Source of the DNA: Chitinophagaceae bacterium
GTDB taxonomy: Bacteria > Bacteroidota > Bacteroidia > Chitinophagales > Chitinophagaceae
Assembly (NCBI GenBank): GCA_024643655.1
Contig: JAHEMM010000019.1
Span: forward strand, 1 to 35,690
Direction: 5' to 3'
DNA: 35,690 nt
The notes under the pieces were generated by a model, which saw only the letters and a program-made list of their open reading frames with translations, did no database searches and had not been told where the DNA came from. Numbering within the stretch: position 1 is the stretch's first letter; every line of letters starts with the position of its first letter. Made by a program: the position numbers and the translations under genes. Below are positions 13,085-18,948 of the stretch, piece by piece.

Positions 13085-13849
13085 ATGGGGCAATTATCAG
13101 AAAGGATTAAAAATTTTCATCCATTAAGAAAAGTAGTTTACTTTTTTGTAGGCTTATTTTCTTACCCTGGACTTGCTATAATTAATAAATTAAAAATTTC
13201 TGGTACGGAGCATTTCAAGAACTTGCCAAGACAAAAAGTTTTATTTGTAAGTAATCATCAAACCTATTTTGCAGATGTAATTACATTCTTACATATTTTC
13301 TGTGCTGTAAAATGGGGTAAGAAAAACAGATTGGGTATCCCTTATTATTTATTGAATCCTTTTACAAGGGTAAATTATGTTGCAGCAGAAGCTACAATGA
13401 AAGGAAGCTTTATTAGTCGGTTGTTTTTATTAGCTGGTGGCATTACTGTAAAAAGAACCTGGAATAAGGAATCTAAAGAAGTGAGGAAAGGATTAGATGT
13501 ATCAGATACAAGAAAAATTCACAGGGCATTAGAAAAAAATTGGGTCATTACATTTCCGCAAGGTACCACCAAACCATTTGCGCCAGGTAGAAAAGGAACA
13601 GCATTATTAATAAAACAAGTTAAGCCAGTTGTAATACCTGTAGTGATAAATGGATTTTGGAGAGCTTTTAATAAAAAAGGGCTGAAATTTAAAAAGAAAG
13701 GAACACTTCTCTCTGTAACTTTTAAGGCTCCTTTGGAAATCAATTATGAAGATTCAACTGATACTATACTTGCCCAGGTAATGGATGCAATAGAACAAAG
13801 CAAAGATTTTATGATGAAAGGGAAGCATCATTGGCAAACTGCAGAATAG
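13085..13849 (+). CDS. 1-acyl-sn-glycerol-3-phosphate acyltransferase-like protein
   Basis: A 254-residue PlsC-family protein. Motif I is SNHQTYFADV near residue 60 (again His and Asp five apart), motif III is FPQGTTKPFAPGRKGTALLI, and block IV is PVVIPVVINGFWRAF. The N-terminal segment VVYFFVGLFSYPGLAIINKL is a likely membrane anchor or amphipathic stretch. It would transfer an acyl chain to a lysophospholipid or a related acceptor; the exact substrate cannot be told from sequence. It differs clearly from the other acyltransferase, at 9824-10786, so the two are not recent duplicates. It is convergent with the thioesterase gene, which also handles acyl-CoA. Confidence 0.85.
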   Translation: MGQLSERIKNFHPLRKVVYFFVGLFSYPGLAIINKLKISGTEHFKNLPRQKVLFVSNHQTYFADVITFLHIFCAVKWGKKNRLGIPYYLLNPFTRVNYVAAEATMKGSFISRLFLLAGGITVKRTWNKESKEVRKGLDVSDTRKIHRALEKNWVITFPQGTTKPFAPGRKGTALLIKQVKPVVIPVVINGFWRAFNKKGLKFKKKGTLLSVTFKAPLEINYEDSTDTILAQVMDAIEQSKDFMMKGKHHWQTAE

Positions 13850-13861
13850 TAAAATATATTA

Positions 13862-14374
13862 TTACTTAATAAATAAAGCTCTTAATTCAGCAGCATCATC
13901 AGGGTTCATCTTTCCGCCTAGTATTAACCTTAATTGTCTTCTACGTAATGCACCGTCAAACAGTTTTTTTTGATCTTCAGTTTCTACTTCCAATTGAGGA
14001 ACAGCTTTTGGTTTGCCATGAGGATCCAAAGCTACAAACGTATAATAAGCTTCGTTACTTTTATATTTGAATTGTTGCGTAAGATCTTCTCCCCAAACAC
14101 TCATATGTACTTCCATCGATGTGGTAAATGCCCGGGTCACTATTGCTTCAATATGTACAACATTTCCAAGTTTAATTGAATTTTCAAAAGAAATGTTATC
14201 AACAGATGCAGTTACGACAGGAGCATTACAATGCTTTTGAGCAGCCAATGCAGATGCAATATCCATCCAGTACATTAGTCTTCCACCCATTAAATTGCCA
14301 AATGTATTGGTGTCATTCGGTAACACCAACTCAGTCATGATGGTAATACTTTCAGAAGCTTTTTTACTGATCAT
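13862..14374 (-). CDS. Acyl-CoA thioesterase, hotdog fold
   Basis: A 170-residue single hotdog-domain protein of the YciA/BFIT-like group that hydrolyses acyl-CoA to free fatty acid and CoA in the cytoplasm. Signatures are ELVLPNDTNTFGNLMGGRLMYWMDIASALAA (the Asn/Gly-rich stretch and the catalytic-region Asp), VTASVDNISFENSIKLGNVV and the beta strand EAYYTFVALDPHGKPKAVP. A basic helix near the end (GALRRRQLRL) is common in these proteins. It starts at ATG 14374. It is 35 bases from the end of the photolyase-like gene upstream on the same strand, so the two may share a transcript. Confidence 0.88.
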   Translation of the reverse strand: MISKKASESITIMTELVLPNDTNTFGNLMGGRLMYWMDIASALAAQKHCNAPVVTASVDNISFENSIKLGNVVHIEAIVTRAFTTSMEVHMSVWGEDLTQQFKYKSNEAYYTFVALDPHGKPKAVPQLEVETEDQKKLFDGALRRRQLRLILGGKMNPDDAAELRALFIK

Positions 14375-14409
14375 TTTTTATTTTCAAAGATAAGCACAGA
14401 AGCATTGAA

Positions 14410-15534
14410 TTATGCTCTTTTCAATTGAGGATTATTGTTTAATTTATTTAATTGACGTAAACATTTTTTCCAATAACTGAAGAATGAATTATGTTGTCCT
14501 TCGATATCAGGAAATAGCCAATCTCTTTTATCTTTATTTCCAGGCAAATGTTTGAATGCTGGGTGCTCTTTGGAATAAATTACTTGAATGTCTTTTAAAA
14601 ATGGGATTTCATTTATTTCTCCAGTAAAGATTTGTATGTCTTTAATATTTTTTGATAAGCCTATAATAAAATCAATTACTTTATTAGAAACAGGATATTG
14701 TTTAAAATGCGATGGCTCTAAAATTAGTACACGGTTCGCCTTCATGTCGCTTCTCCAAAGAGGATCAAGATTATAGCTGTTGTAAATGAGTAGAGGAAGA
14801 GTACTGTCAATTTTAATATTTCTTCTATTAGGTAAATTAGTTGTTAAATGTATTGTTGCTGTCTCTTTGAGTGAATGAGGAATTTCTGAAGTGGTTAACT
14901 CTTCATAACTTTTATCAAGAAATGTGTTTTGTTGAGAACTGTTTGCATACTTATTAATATTTTCCTGATTGCAATAATATTGTTTAGAAGAAAAACTACC
15001 GGCTATCCATTGCCAGCTTAATGTGTTATTTGCAAGATCTCCATCTAGTAAATGGTAATACATCCATTCAGATGGAAGCTTCCAATATGATCTGGCTATA
15101 TTACTGATTATACTGGCAATATACATTCTTAAGTGATTGTGAATATAACCCTTACCAATCATTTCATTAATTGCCTGGTCTATTACATTTATTCCAGTTT
15201 TAGCCGCCAAAATATTTTGCGAAATTTTTCTGTTTTGTACACCGGAGTAATTTATTTTGATATCATCAAATATATAATCTTCATAATGCTGCCATGTTCT
15301 TTGATAATATTCACGCCATGCTAATTGTTGAATAAATTTTTCTGACTCATATATGGAATAACCTCTTGACAAAATACTATCCAATACCTGTTTGGTTGAA
15401 ATAACTCCTCGAGAAATATAAGGAGAAAGCTGTGAAACGGCTCCGTTGGTGTAATTTCTTGTTTGAGCATATTTACCAGGTTGAATTTTCTCAACCATAT
15501 CTAATATCGCTGGGTATGTTAAAGGGAAATCCAT
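14410..15534 (-). CDS. Photolyase/cryptochrome-like flavoprotein with FAD domain first
   Basis: The N-terminal half is a FAD-binding photolyase domain: SQLSPYISRG (residues 34-43), LAWREYYQRTW (71-81), HNHLRM (132-137), DGDLANN (164-170) and WQWIAG (174-179). The usual preceding alpha/beta domain is absent, since this domain begins near residue 25. The last 130 residues instead resemble the N-terminal alpha/beta domain of the PhrB-like protein at 16038-17528: RVLILEPSHFKQYP matches RTVYLVEEYLYFKQYS, and IPFLKDIQVIYSKEH matches IPFLKKQGVTDIYYTHT. So the domain order looks permuted. The canonical N-P-x-x-Q region after the WQW is replaced by SSKQYYCNQENINKYA. The protein could be a DNA repair enzyme or a light sensor; the family is sure, the function is not. 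Confidence 0.8.
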   Translation of the reverse strand: MDFPLTYPAILDMVEKIQPGKYAQTRNYTNGAVSQLSPYISRGVISTKQVLDSILSRGYSIYESEKFIQQLAWREYYQRTWQHYEDYIFDDIKINYSGVQNRKISQNILAAKTGINVIDQAINEMIGKGYIHNHLRMYIASIISNIARSYWKLPSEWMYYHLLDGDLANNTLSWQWIAGSFSSKQYYCNQENINKYANSSQQNTFLDKSYEELTTSEIPHSLKETATIHLTTNLPNRRNIKIDSTLPLLIYNSYNLDPLWRSDMKANRVLILEPSHFKQYPVSNKVIDFIIGLSKNIKDIQIFTGEINEIPFLKDIQVIYSKEHPAFKHLPGNKDKRDWLFPDIEGQHNSFFSYWKKCLRQLNKLNNNPQLKRA

Positions 15535-15622
15535 TGCTTTTATTTTTATAACAATTTCCTTTATTAATAGTTTTACATAGTTGAAATGCTTTTTTCTTTT
15601 GTTTTAAGTTTTATCATTAAAT

Positions 15623-15904
15623 ATGTTTAATCGTTTAACAGAATCGGAAATTGATCGTGTCATTGAAATGGGATGGGAAGACAGAACTCCTTTTGAAGCT
15701 ATTCTATATCAATTTGGATTGCAGGAAAAAGAGGTTATTCAATTAATGCAAAAGGAATTGAAGAAAAGCAGTTTCATTTTGTGGAGAAAGCGGATGGCTG
15801 GTAGGACCACTAAACACAAAATGCTTAGAAATGAAAAAGTAAAAAGATTCAAATGCAGCCGGCAAAGAGGTATTTCTAGCAATAAAATAAGTAAACGATT
15901 ATGA
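15623..15904 (+). CDS. TIGR03643 family protein
   Basis: A 93-residue basic protein. The pattern LTESEIDRVIEMGWEDRTPF, then AILYQFGLQEKEVIQLMQKEL, then SFILWRKRMAGRTTKHK fits the small uncharacterised family TIGR03643, which I know as a frequent neighbour of cryptochromes and photolyases. The first 50 residues look like a helix-turn-helix; the last 35 are strongly basic (MLRNEKVKRFKCSRQRG), suggesting nucleic acid contact (inference). It is transcribed away from the photolyase-like gene across an 88-base gap, and its stop codon overlaps the end of the opposite-strand DUF2256 gene by 6 bases. No biochemical role is known to me. Confidence 0.8.
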   Translation: MFNRLTESEIDRVIEMGWEDRTPFEAILYQFGLQEKEVIQLMQKELKKSSFILWRKRMAGRTTKHKMLRNEKVKRFKCSRQRGISSNKISKRL

Positions 15905-16048
15905 TGATAATTGTCGTCTTAATCGACATTTTTCGCTACAATATTTTACTTCCCCCCAATTTTTTCTCCATTTTTTTCGCCAGTTGAATGATCGGTTACA
16001 GATTAGGCAAATTTTAGAAGGAAGGTCTATTTTTTTTCTAGTTTTCAA
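15899..16048 (-). CDS. DUF2256 small zinc-finger-like protein
   Basis: This 49-residue gene is found by reading the minus strand between the two flanking genes. Two cysteine pairs are visible, CLIC (14-17) and CSEKC (37-41), around a Trp/Lys/Arg-rich segment FNWRKKWRKNWGEVKYC, which is the DUF2256 pattern and likely binds one zinc. There is no ATG in frame; a stop lies two codons upstream. TTG at 16048 is the only plausible start and gives MKTRKKIDLPSKIC. The TTG lies inside the last codons of the PhrB-like gene (11-base overlap), so translation is probably coupled to it. The biochemical role is unknown; the linkage to photolyase genes suggests a partner function. Confidence 0.82.
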   Translation of the reverse strand: MKTRKKIDLPSKICLICNRSFNWRKKWRKNWGEVKYCSEKCRLRRQLSS

Positions 16049-17528
16049 GGTCTATTTTTTTGAGAAATTCATTTGCAATTTTCAAGTGAGTATCTCTTTT
16101 TTCTTCTGGCATTTTGTCAAAAGTTCTTATCAGCATACCTAATCTTGGATTCGTCATAAAGAAAGTACGATGTGTATGCAAAAAGCGCCAGAATAATCCA
16201 TCCCAGGTTTTTTGCCATTCTCCTTTTTCCCAATTGCCCATTTTTAGTAAATAATTACTGCCTGATATATAAGGTTTAGTGGTCATTAGCCCTCCATCAG
16301 CAAATTGTGACATACCATATACATTTGGTACCATCACCCAATCATAACTATCTATATACATTTTCATAAACCAACGATACACTTCATTTGGGTCAAATTC
16401 ACAAAGCAGCATAAAATTACCTAGCACCATCAATCGCTCAATATGATGCGAATATCCAGTTTGTAATAGTCTTTTAATTACCGTATCAACTGGTAAAATA
16501 CCAGTAGTTCCTTGCCAGAAAGAAGTTGGTATTTCTCTGGAAAAGCCCCAATAGTTTTTTGTACGTTGTTGACGACCTTCTCGTTCATATAGTATTCGTA
16601 TAAACTCTCTCCATCCTATAATCTGCCTGATAAAGCCTTCAAGTGAATTTAAAGGTATATTTTTTCTACCAGCGACTTTTAATACTTCATCCAGTACGAT
16701 TTGAGGATTTATTAATCCAATATTTAAAATAGGAGTTAAGATACTATGATATAAGGTATTTTCATTTTGTACCATGGCATCCTCATAAGTACCAAATTTT
16801 GATAACCGGTTTTCGAGAAAATCATTCAACCAAAGAACTGCATCACTTCTCGTTATTGGATAATTAAACGTATTTATCTCTCCGTAATTATTAGTAAAAT
16901 TTTTATTGACATAATTTATAGCTTCAGAAATAAATTTATTTGTTCCAAAGTCTGGTAATTCTGGGATGCTTTCTTTTTTCGGAAACTTCTGTCTATTTTC
17001 TTTATCAAAAGTCCATTTACCTCCAGTTGGTTTATTGTCTTTTTCAATAAGGATTTTCCGTTGTTTCCGTTGTGCTATATAAAAGTCTGTTTGAAAATAC
17101 TTTTTTTTCTGATCAAAGTATCTATTTAGATCATCAGTTGTGTTTAAAAAATTAGGGCTGGTTGAAGGATGTAAATTTAGTTGTAATGACTTGGCAGATT
17201 CAGTTATTCTTTTTTCAAGCCAATAGTCAACAGTATGAGTGTAATAAATGTCGGTAACGCCTTGCTTTTTTAAGAAAGGGATTAGTGATAATATATTTGC
17301 AATCGGCTCATTGGCATCAATATAGTTGACTTCTATATTATTGTCTGCAAGTTCAGCTGCATATGCTTTCATGCTTGACCGGTGAAGAACTAATTTTTGT
17401 TTATGAAAGGAATATTGTTTGAAGTATAAATATTCTTCTACCAGATAAACTGTTCTATTCTTACTCACTGCAGGATGTGCGTCAAATAATTGATGTGGGA
17501 AAATTATCGTAATTGCATGCATAGACAT
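16038..17528 (-). CDS. PhrB/FeS-BCP-type (6-4) photolyase-like protein lacking cluster cysteines
   Basis: A 496-residue cryptochrome/photolyase of the bacterial FeS-BCP (PhrB) group. The N-terminal alpha/beta domain shows FPHQLFDAHPAV, VYLVEEYLYFKQYSFHKQKLVLHR; the FAD domain shows the paired histidines of GYSHHIERLMVLGNF (361-362, the positions critical in (6-4) repair), then WVMVPNVYGMSQFADGG and TKPYISGSNYLLKM (417-430). Members of this group normally bind a 4Fe-4S cluster through four cysteines, three of them in the loop after this last motif. Here that loop reads GNWEKGEWQKTWDGLFWRF (431-449) with no cysteine, and the whole protein has just one (Cys376). It therefore cannot hold a cysteine-ligated cluster by itself. 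The DUF2256 gene is coupled downstream. Confidence 0.88.
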   Translation of the reverse strand: MSMHAITIIFPHQLFDAHPAVSKNRTVYLVEEYLYFKQYSFHKQKLVLHRSSMKAYAAELADNNIEVNYIDANEPIANILSLIPFLKKQGVTDIYYTHTVDYWLEKRITESAKSLQLNLHPSTSPNFLNTTDDLNRYFDQKKKYFQTDFYIAQRKQRKILIEKDNKPTGGKWTFDKENRQKFPKKESIPELPDFGTNKFISEAINYVNKNFTNNYGEINTFNYPITRSDAVLWLNDFLENRLSKFGTYEDAMVQNENTLYHSILTPILNIGLINPQIVLDEVLKVAGRKNIPLNSLEGFIRQIIGWREFIRILYEREGRQQRTKNYWGFSREIPTSFWQGTTGILPVDTVIKRLLQTGYSHHIERLMVLGNFMLLCEFDPNEVYRWFMKMYIDSYDWVMVPNVYGMSQFADGGLMTTKPYISGSNYLLKMGNWEKGEWQKTWDGLFWRFLHTHRTFFMTNPRLGMLIRTFDKMPEEKRDTHLKIANEFLKKIDLEN

Positions 17529-17614
17529 GCAAATAACAATAACGGGTTAGTTTTGTTTAGTAAATTTCTTACCTTTTGAATGGGTTAAGGATAGTGAAAA
17601 ATGACTTTATAATA

Positions 17615-17633
17615 CCCCTAAATACCTAAGGGT
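17615..17633. repeat. CCCCTAAAT-type repeat, degenerate copy
   Basis: CCCCTAAAT is followed by ACCTAAGGGT, a weak hairpin. The arrangement is that of the better copies at 20329-20361 and 23294-23320. It lies in the 184-base spacer between the divergent PhrB-like and proline dehydrogenase genes. Confidence 0.4.
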
Positions 17634-17672
17634 TCTGCATAAAATCATATGCTGTTTTATCTTCCTTTCATT

Positions 17673-17680
17673 TAATTTTG
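17673..17680 (+). promoter_or_regulatory. Putative -7 box for proline dehydrogenase
   Basis: TAATTTTG matches the TAnnTTTG Bacteroidota -7 consensus and lies 32 bases before the start codon. No good -33 TTG is visible at the usual distance. Confidence 0.45.
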
Positions 17681-17712
17681 CGCCAACCGGAATTCGGTAT
17701 TAATAACGCTGT

Positions 17713-18948
17713 ATGGAAAAATTAAATATCAGCCCATCCTTTGACAATACTAAGGTTGCCTTTGAATATAAAAATGATAAACAGTTAAAAAAGGCCAGCT
17801 TCCTGTTCAGTCTTATGGGTAAACCATGGATTGTACGCATGGGCTCAAAACTAGCACCCTGGTCTCTTAAAGTAGGATTGCCTGTAAAAGGAATTATACG
17901 CAGTACAATATTTTCACAGTTTTTAGGTGGTGAAACGCTTGAAGAAACAAAGATTGTTGCTCAAAAATTAGGGGAATATAATGTAAAAGTAATCCTTGAT
18001 TATGGTGTAGAAGGAAAAGAAGGGGAAGAAAATTTCGATCATGCTTGTGATGAGTTTATCAAGGTTATAGCATATGCAGGCACACAACCCATGATTCCTT
18101 TCATGAGTGTAAAAGTAACAGGCTTTGCAAGATTTGCATTATTGGAGAAACTAGATACTTTGATGCACTCAAAAGAAGGAACACTAATGAAGCGGTTTTT
18201 GTCCGCAATTGAAGATTTAAATGCTGTAGAAAAAGAAGAATGGCACAGGGTAAGACATAGAATGATGCGGATTTGTGAAACTGCTGCTCAACAGAAAACC
18301 GGAGTGCTTGTAGATGCTGAAGAAACCTGGATACAGGATCCGGTTGATGCACTTACTATATTAATGATGGACACTTTTAATAAGGATAATTGCGTAGTGT
18401 ATAATACAACTCAACATTATCGTCATGACAGGTTACAATTTCTTAAAGATTCTCATGCAGCTGCAGTAGAAAGAAACTTTGTATTGGGAGCTAAATTGGT
18501 AAGAGGTGCCTATATGGAAAAAGAAAGAAAAAGAGCTGAAGAAAATAACTATCCGTCACCAATAAACCCTGATAAAGAAAGTACTGACAATGAATTTAAT
18601 GAAGGTGTTAAATTTTGCATTGAACATTTAGATAGAATAAGTTTAATTGTTGCATCGCATAATGAGTTTAGTAATCTTTATGCTACACAATTATTGCAAG
18701 AAAAAGGGTTGCCAATGGATCACCCTCATATACATTGGAGCCAATTGTATGGAATGAGTGATAATATAACTTTTAATTTGGCACATGCCGGATGCTCCGT
18801 AAGTAAATACCTTCCATTTGGACCTATAAAAGATGTTGTGCCTTATTTGATGCGAAGAGCACAGGAAAATACTTCCATAAAAGGCCAAACTGGAAGAGAG
18901 TTGAACTTGATAAAAAAGGAATTATTGCGAAGGAAAAATCAAAAATAG
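17713..18948 (+). CDS. Proline dehydrogenase (monofunctional)
   Basis: A 411-residue FAD-dependent enzyme that oxidises proline to pyrroline-5-carboxylate and passes electrons to the quinone pool. The TIM-barrel core carries VLVDAEETWIQDPVD, VVYNTTQHYRHDR, the substrate motif GAKLVRGAYMEKERKRA and VASHNEFS near the end, then YLPFGPIKDVVPYLMRRAQEN. It has no P5C dehydrogenase part, unlike bifunctional PutA, so the second step must be encoded elsewhere. It is preceded by its own -7 box and convergent with the TerB-like gene (17 bases apart), so it looks monocistronic. Confidence 0.93.
   Translation: MEKLNISPSFDNTKVAFEYKNDKQLKKASFLFSLMGKPWIVRMGSKLAPWSLKVGLPVKGIIRSTIFSQFLGGETLEETKIVAQKLGEYNVKVILDYGVEGKEGEENFDHACDEFIKVIAYAGTQPMIPFMSVKVTGFARFALLEKLDTLMHSKEGTLMKRFLSAIEDLNAVEKEEWHRVRHRMMRICETAAQQKTGVLVDAEETWIQDPVDALTILMMDTFNKDNCVVYNTTQHYRHDRLQFLKDSHAAAVERNFVLGAKLVRGAYMEKERKRAEENNYPSPINPDKESTDNEFNEGVKFCIEHLDRISLIVASHNEFSNLYATQLLQEKGLPMDHPHIHWSQLYGMSDNITFNLAHAGCSVSKYLPFGPIKDVVPYLMRRAQENTSIKGQTGRELNLIKKELLRRKNQK

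Follow-up and report, generated by a model that had tools for sequence, protein, structure and literature searches.

The window analysed here is the whole 35,690-nucleotide contig JAHEMM010000019.1 of a Chitinophagaceae bacterium (assembly GCA_024643655.1), one of the 177 contigs of a 3.17-Mb genome, and this report concerns a compact group of four genes at positions 14410-17528 that probably encodes a light-dependent DNA repair module with two different photolyases. The first gene (14410-15534, minus strand) encodes a photolyase of 374 aa with reverse domain order, in which the flavin adenine dinucleotide (FAD) domain is N-terminal (PF03441 at residues 67-200) and an alpha/beta domain is C-terminal. 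An intergenic region of 88 bp (15535-15622), presumed from its coordinates to hold the promoters, separates its start from the divergent start of a TIGR03643/DUF2805 gene (15623-15904, plus strand), whose basic product of 93 aa is probably a helix-turn-helix (HTH) protein by its family matches. This gene converges, with a 6-bp overlap, on the gene of a DUF2256 protein (15899-16048, minus strand; 49 aa, TTG start), assigned by family match and carrying a treble-clef-like zinc finger of the CxxC...CxxxC pattern. The DUF2256 gene in turn overlaps by 11 bp the end of a DPRP gene (16038-17528, minus strand; 496 aa, PF04244 and PF03441), whose product is of the prokaryotic (6-4) photolyase type and lacks the four iron-sulfur (Fe-S) cysteines. 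All four open reading frames (ORFs) lie where the original prediction had placed them, and Pfam and NCBIfam returned the same family names.

The strands had not been mentioned in that prediction. TIGR03643 lies on the plus strand and the other three genes on the minus strand, so the four genes are not one operon, and that idea was ruled out. A same-genus relative (G115), with the gene order short-chain dehydrogenase (SDR)-DPRP-DUF2256-photolyase and no TIGR03643 match in its genome, also counts against a single operon. Across 13800-17800, promoter-like matches numbered 23 against a shuffle mean of 19.9, none above chance, and what we take to be the Bacteroidota-type -7/-33 consensus had 0 matches in the window. 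A terminator-like hairpin was seen at 15912-15928 (plus strand), just past the TIGR03643 stop and within the antisense DUF2256 gene, the number of such hairpins being as expected by chance. Another contig of the same genome (C56, 8246-9445) carries a normal-order photolyase of 446 aa, placed in the tree with four more of the ordinary kind; the genome thus has a photolyase outside the module.

The DPRP matched PF04244 with an E-value (E) of 1.7e-59 and was nearly full-length homologous to solved Fe-S (6-4) photolyases such as AfPhrB and SePhrB (E 2.5e-80 to 1.8e-72). It keeps His361-His362, which we take to be the catalytic pair, as well as the tyrosine that corresponds to the mutated residue of 5lfa. 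The four cysteine columns of the cluster are occupied by P, a gap, a gap and K, which bears out its description as a cluster-less PhrB. Among the DPRPs of 198 genomes of the phylum (n = 65), all four cysteines were present in 42 and none in 23. Alignment column 546 holds a Cys in 91% of the cluster-less group (n = 23) and in 0/42 of the cluster-bearing DPRPs.

For the 374-aa protein, AlphaFold gave a model with a predicted local distance difference test score (pLDDT) of 90.4 and a predicted TM-score (pTM) of 0.90, in which the N-terminal part is helical and the C-terminal part alpha/beta. All 97 aligned reverse-order rows (94 distinct) have both domains, arranged alike, and the Foldseek alignments of the protein with photolyases span about 200-235 columns, which corresponds in size to the FAD half. 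The C-terminal domain is predicted by the model to be Rossmann-like. In hhalign comparisons it matched the C-terminal domain of Deinococcus reverse-order photolyases at E 0.0002-0.0006, canonical photolyase N-terminal domains at E 0.0015 and the class II N-terminal domain at E 0.0087, the remaining comparisons giving 0.048-0.87; the Deinococcus domain itself matched canonical antenna domains at E 6e-7 by profile comparison. Searched alone with Foldseek, the domain had no match at E <= 0.001, the top TM-score by query length among the best 50 rows being 0.46 for Arabidopsis CRY2 at rank 36, and the best E in a PDB profile search was 0.07. The original prediction of a permuted partner holds for the domain order, FAD first and Rossmann-like second, as given by the PF03441 position and the model, while the identity of the second domain with the usual antenna domain is no more than moderately supported.

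The FAD-contact positions were taken from the list for the PCC 6301 enzyme in PMC9426592. Equivalents of Y228, L243, R287, N349, D380, D382 and N386 are invariant in the 97 reverse-order rows, that of S244 is kept in 96 of them, and that of S241 is Ser or Thr. At the presumed positions of the electron-transfer tryptophan triad, two of the three residues are invariant. The CPD (cyclobutane pyrimidine dimer)-site glutamate, which we take to be the counterpart of E283 in the A. nidulans enzyme, falls at residue 70 and is Glu in 95/97 rows; the same-genus relative has Glu. The four Fe-S cysteines of the Phr4/Phr6 type are absent: no Cys was invariant among 15 reverse-order members, and the window's protein has two Cys altogether. 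The clade is separate from other photolyases, with a Shimodaira-Hasegawa-like approximate likelihood ratio test (SH-aLRT) support of 97 in a quick tree and 93/90 in a careful tree. Among the matches listed, the closest named relatives of the gene are Chitinophagaceae; 78 of the best 80 reverse-order loci of one scan are named Bacteroidota and the other two are metagenome-assembled genomes named as alphaproteobacteria. Ten phage records matched the FAD-domain part alone (residues 22-180), and none spanned 80% of the query.

The window's own protein has Gln at residue 70, shared with one other row (L231), and this might lower CPD repair by this copy. The replacement also fits cryptochrome-type signalling, in which one or both flavoproteins sense light and the HTH and zinc-finger proteins relay the signal, and Rhodobacter CryB, a DPRP, also regulates gene expression (PMC9178010). 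Such a role seems improbable, since the His-His pair and Tyr of the (6-4) type are kept in the DPRP and the Glu in nearly all reverse-order rows, and since in V. cholerae the same genes were blue-light responsive in a triple photolyase/cryptochrome knockout (PMC5241685).

The two small proteins score above the curated cut-offs of their families. TIGR03643 was matched with 114 bits against a cut-off of 66.55 (E 2.5e-33) and DUF2805 with 117.1 against 22.5 (E 4.5e-34), while DUF2256 scored 71.6 against 25 (E 5.8e-20). An HTH family was weakly matched by 14/35 TIGR03643 members (best E 0.0071), and PDB profile searches gave a best E of 0.36 for TIGR03643 and 0.049 for DUF2256. Cys 14, 17, 37 and 41 of DUF2256 are invariant among 29 members, and the protein weakly matches YacG, zf-HIT and MYND; the family is assigned to the TRASH/treble-clef kind of four-cysteine finger (PMC4047054). 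Judged by their sequences, both are probably nucleic-acid-binding companions.

Co-occurrence was counted first in the 198 genomes of the phylum, in which the reverse-order matches counted had E 1.3e-77 or better and two partial DUF2256 matches (G011, below the cut-off, and G082) were included. DPRP was found in 65 genomes, DUF2256 in 64, TIGR03643 in 56, DASH above its curated cut-off in 45 and the reverse-order photolyase in 16. DPRP and DUF2256 shared 58 genomes, with 7 and 6 holding one of them alone and 127 neither (p 6e-35); for DPRP and TIGR03643 the figures were 48, 17 and 8, and 125 (p 4e-23). DPRP (65) and DASH-or-reverse-order photolyases (60) shared 55 genomes. All 16 reverse-order genomes have both DPRP and DUF2256 and 13 of them TIGR03643, and DPRP likewise accompanied the reverse-order photolyase in 23/23 cases among 136 new genomes, giving 39/39. 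Of 14 well-known control genomes, 3 have DPRP, two of these (Caulobacter and Synechococcus elongatus) also have DUF2256, and 0 have TIGR03643. The predicted co-occurrence of these families is therefore far above chance, as the counts for DPRP with DUF2256, with TIGR03643 and with the reverse-order photolyase show.

Within the DPRP genomes, the reverse-order photolyase and DASH nearly exclude each other. Both were present in 1 of the 65, the reverse-order enzyme alone in 15, DASH alone in 39 and neither in 10 (p 2e-7), and the split by genus was 1, 10, 22 and 6 (p 1.1e-4). Over all 198 genomes the same split (1, 15, 44, 138) gave no significant exclusion (p 0.13), because most genomes have neither enzyme. 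A second sample comprised 149 genomes of the window's order, from which 13 already seen were dropped to leave the 136; the expectations were written down before testing, and the reverse-order enzyme was sought by its C-terminal domain, some matches being fragments. Incomplete genomes were included, 112/149 being >=90% complete and <=5% contaminated. In the 53 new genomes with DPRP, both enzymes occurred in 0, the reverse-order enzyme in 23, DASH in 24 and neither in 6 (p 7.7e-10), and by genus in 0, 15, 18 and 4 (p 5e-7). A preference of DUF2256 for DASH or reverse-order photolyases over DPRP, which appeared strong within the DPRP genomes of the first sample (p 1.7e-5), was weak in the second (p 0.093), in which DPRP was the better correlate (odds ratio 57 vs 33), so this preference is not claimed.

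The original prediction had further proposed a multi-protein complex in which a small subunit supplies the metal sites that the PhrB-like protein has lost. The tight packing of the genes here and the four-cysteine finger of DUF2256 speak for it. The counts speak against it: DUF2256 was present in 20/23 cluster-less and 38/42 cluster-bearing DPRP genomes (p 0.69), and in 13/16 cluster-less and 20/23 other genera (p 0.67), so loss of the cysteines does not track with DUF2256. Its gene also directly adjoins that of a four-cysteine DPRP in each of the three plasmid records examined, two from Acinetobacter and one from Rhizobium. On these genome counts and plasmid neighbours DUF2256 was ruled out as a metal donor, and since Prochlorococcus is known to have prokaryotic (6-4) photolyases without the cluster (PMC9178010), such a complex appears highly improbable. 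Loss of the cysteines did not track with TIGR03643 by genome (19/23 vs 29/42, p 0.38) and did so weakly by genus (15/16 cluster-less vs 13/23 others, p 0.014). The reverse-order photolyase does track with cluster loss (14/23 cluster-less vs 2/42 cluster-bearing). Because the cluster state changed once on the DPRP tree, none of these correlations is separable from ancestry.

Gene neighbourhoods were inspected at the best 80 of at least 553 reverse-order relatives, a set biased to close ones and including many short contigs. Within four genes, a DPRP scoring as cluster-less was found at 51 loci, one of the cluster type at 2, TIGR03643 at 35 and DUF2256 at 20; at least one partner was present at 69/80 loci, and a same-strand partner overlapping or <30 bp away at 42/80. 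These loci include 52 long DPRPs, of which 50 lack every one of the four Cys and 2 have the full set. In the 16 reverse-order genomes of the phylum sample, DUF2256 lay within 1.5 kb of the reverse-order gene in 10, a cluster-less DPRP in 9 and TIGR03643 in 8, and in the order sample 13/23 reverse-order genes lay within 5 kb of a DPRP gene. On two Acinetobacter plasmids, DPRP-DUF2256 and TIGR03643 are convergent with a 4-bp overlap, nearly the layout of the window, and these DPRPs have all four cysteines. In eight further DUF2256 plasmid neighbourhoods an annotated photolyase directly adjoins in two (Tritonibacter and Salinivibrio); no photolyase was found within about 4 kb in the other six, or within 5-6 kb of TIGR03643 on plasmids of Vibrio, Nostoc and Pseudoalteromonas, the gene table of the collection being incomplete. 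Related layouts thus recur in other families and phyla, and the arrangement is more than chance.

Other genes were seen in these neighbourhoods. A third photolyase class of 474-534 aa forms its own clade (support 100), and those of its members that were scanned score below the DASH cut-off. In 12 genomes it is found no more than 1.5 kb from DUF2256, and photolyases with similar family scores adjoin DUF2256 on two plasmids. An ABC1/AarF/UbiB-type kinase gene recurs as well: in 8 Bacteroidota genomes it lies near photolyase or TIGR03643 genes, and three alphaproteobacterial plasmids have it close to inverted photolyases. At six loci, reverse-order or DPRP genes lie near phytoene desaturase (labelled by reading of the sequence) or phytoene synthase (PF00494), and some of these neighbourhoods also hold an extracytoplasmic function (ECF) sigma factor, which suggests a light or photo-oxidative regulon.

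One photo-oxidative-stress regulon, in which TIGR03643 and DUF2256 either serve as transcription factors or are bystanders, without acting directly in repair, is accordingly a possible, if distinctly less probable, explanation. The neighbours in relatives include phytoene synthase/desaturase, the ECF sigma factor, SDR, flavin reductase, TetR and the ABC1 kinase, and the small genes are often unlinked though co-occurring. Light-induced sets with phrB and cryB, with an SDR in the conserved region, are described for Pseudomonas (PMC9758184), and blue-light-induced photolyase operons with the regulators ChrR and MerR for V. cholerae (PMC5241685). However, the co-occurrence is with photolyases, and in 44/63 genomes a photolyase gene stands no more than 1.5 kb from DUF2256, a closer linkage than a regulon would require. 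The promoter scans of the window, with nothing above chance, say little either way.

The co-occurrence, together with the retention of most FAD and catalytic residues in both photolyases, makes a light-dependent repair module the natural reading, and this part of the original prediction stands without its metal-supplying subunit. We give a probability of about 60% to an inverted CPD photolyase that occupies the slot of DASH alongside a (6-4) photolyase, the set as a whole having two small companions. The module would act by two complementary photolyases, one for each main UV lesion. The DPRP gene would provide a prokaryotic (6-4) photolyase of the subtype without an Fe-S cluster, and the 374-aa protein would be an inverted-topology CPD photolyase filling the slot held by DASH cryptochrome in related Bacteroidota. 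If it behaves like DASH and NewPHL, its preferred substrate may be CPDs in DNA that is single-stranded or unwound. The zinc-finger DUF2256 protein and the HTH-like TIGR03643 protein would accompany the whole photolyase set in trans, most simply as nucleic-acid-binding helpers or regulators and not as cofactor donors to the cluster-less enzyme. In this reading the gene content, the order of the domains, the conserved residues, the co-occurrence and the near-exclusion of DASH are observed, and the lesion specificity, the preference for single-stranded DNA and the action of the small proteins are inferred. A bolder form, which we consider rather unlikely, is that they are the first dedicated photolyase accessory proteins, opening or presenting DNA to photolyases (DASH and inverted) whose in vitro activity is confined to single-stranded DNA, so that these can carry out chromosomal CPD repair, the inverted enzyme being in DASH's place here.

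Several observations weigh against the inverted CPD photolyase in the DASH slot. Besides the Gln at residue 70, the equivalents of T240, W280 and T346 are replaced in reverse-order rows (T346 by Tyr), and at its presumed position the third electron-transfer Trp is missing. The branch joining the clade with two Deinococcus and four alphaproteobacterial inverted rows had a support of 81 in the quick tree and 72/38 in the careful one, which does not establish that the clade groups with the known inverted photolyases, and the C-terminal domain matched that of a presumed alphaproteobacterial NewPHL at E 0.13, no better than controls. One genome (G080) carries DASH and the reverse-order photolyase together. 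Ancestry is incompletely corrected for in the co-occurrence counts. The DPRP tree offered 5 pairs for independent contrasts, too few for a test, with DASH opposite in 2-3 and the same in 0. DUF2256 was expected to be absent where DASH and the reverse-order enzyme are both absent, and this was seen weakly in the second-sample DPRP genomes (p 0.093). TIGR03643 and DUF2256 genes often stand alone, far from any photolyase in many genomes. Lastly, G101 (L066, 1435-1737, minus strand), left out of the counts, holds a 100-aa reverse-order remnant beside an SDR-like gene, in a genome with no DPRP or DUF2256 match, which fits decay of the reverse-order enzyme after loss of its partner.

In summary, a replicated genomic rule emerged: genomes with the (6-4) photolyase usually also hold the two small families and a second photolyase, which is either DASH or a reverse-order enzyme and hardly ever both. 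A likely biological setting can now be offered for DUF2256 and TIGR03643; the literature found on TIGR03643, DUF2805 or DUF2256, in excerpt, held no link to photolyases. What is known of DASH-type photolyases is mainly activity on single-stranded DNA, which leaves their cellular role unclear. Publications already describe reverse-order photolyases and cluster-less PhrBs; our literature search, which for the clade and its pairing covered listed titles and abstracts, found no account of this reverse-order clade, its pairing with DPRP, or DUF2256 with photolyases. The clade is spread through Bacteroidota, beyond the picocyanobacteria and alphaproteobacteria of the published accounts as excerpted.

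Among known systems, Phr4/Phr5 and Phr6 of Synechococcus/Cyanobium, with a domain order called the reverse of that in all photolyases described before (PMC9426592), share with the Bacteroidota clade an FAD domain placed first and an alpha/beta domain placed second. As compared by description, the Phr4-6 type is reported to carry four Fe-S cysteines (PMC9426592), whereas the Bacteroidota clade has no invariant Cys and is found with DPRP. Deinococcus plasmids also carry reverse-order photolyases (L306, 5884-7175; L312, 3881-5251), one of them split in two overlapping ORFs like phr4/phr5; their C-terminal parts match PF00875 (E 2e-4 and 7e-4, below the curated cut-off) and show a CxxC...C pattern like the Fe-S types. 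NewPHL/SPL, of inverted topology, repairs CPDs in single-stranded DNA (PMC13274461), and Phr7 is a comparison protein of this type (PMC9426592). It resembles the Bacteroidota clade in topology, in the lack of Fe-S cysteines and in CPD-type residues, but the C-terminal domains are not recognisably alike in sequence, as judged on presumed alphaproteobacterial members. The window's DPRP is homologous over almost the full length to the FeS-BCP/PhrB proteins (AfPhrB 4dja, SePhrB 8ijy and CryB 3zxs) but without their cluster cysteines. In this it resembles the cluster-less subgroup M with PromaPL of Prochlorococcus (PMC9178010), compared by description, which has the DPRP and FAD domains and the His-His pair and lacks the four Cys. 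DASH cryptochrome (TIGR02765) adjoins DPRP and/or DUF2256 in relatives but has the normal domain order and is nearly exclusive with it.

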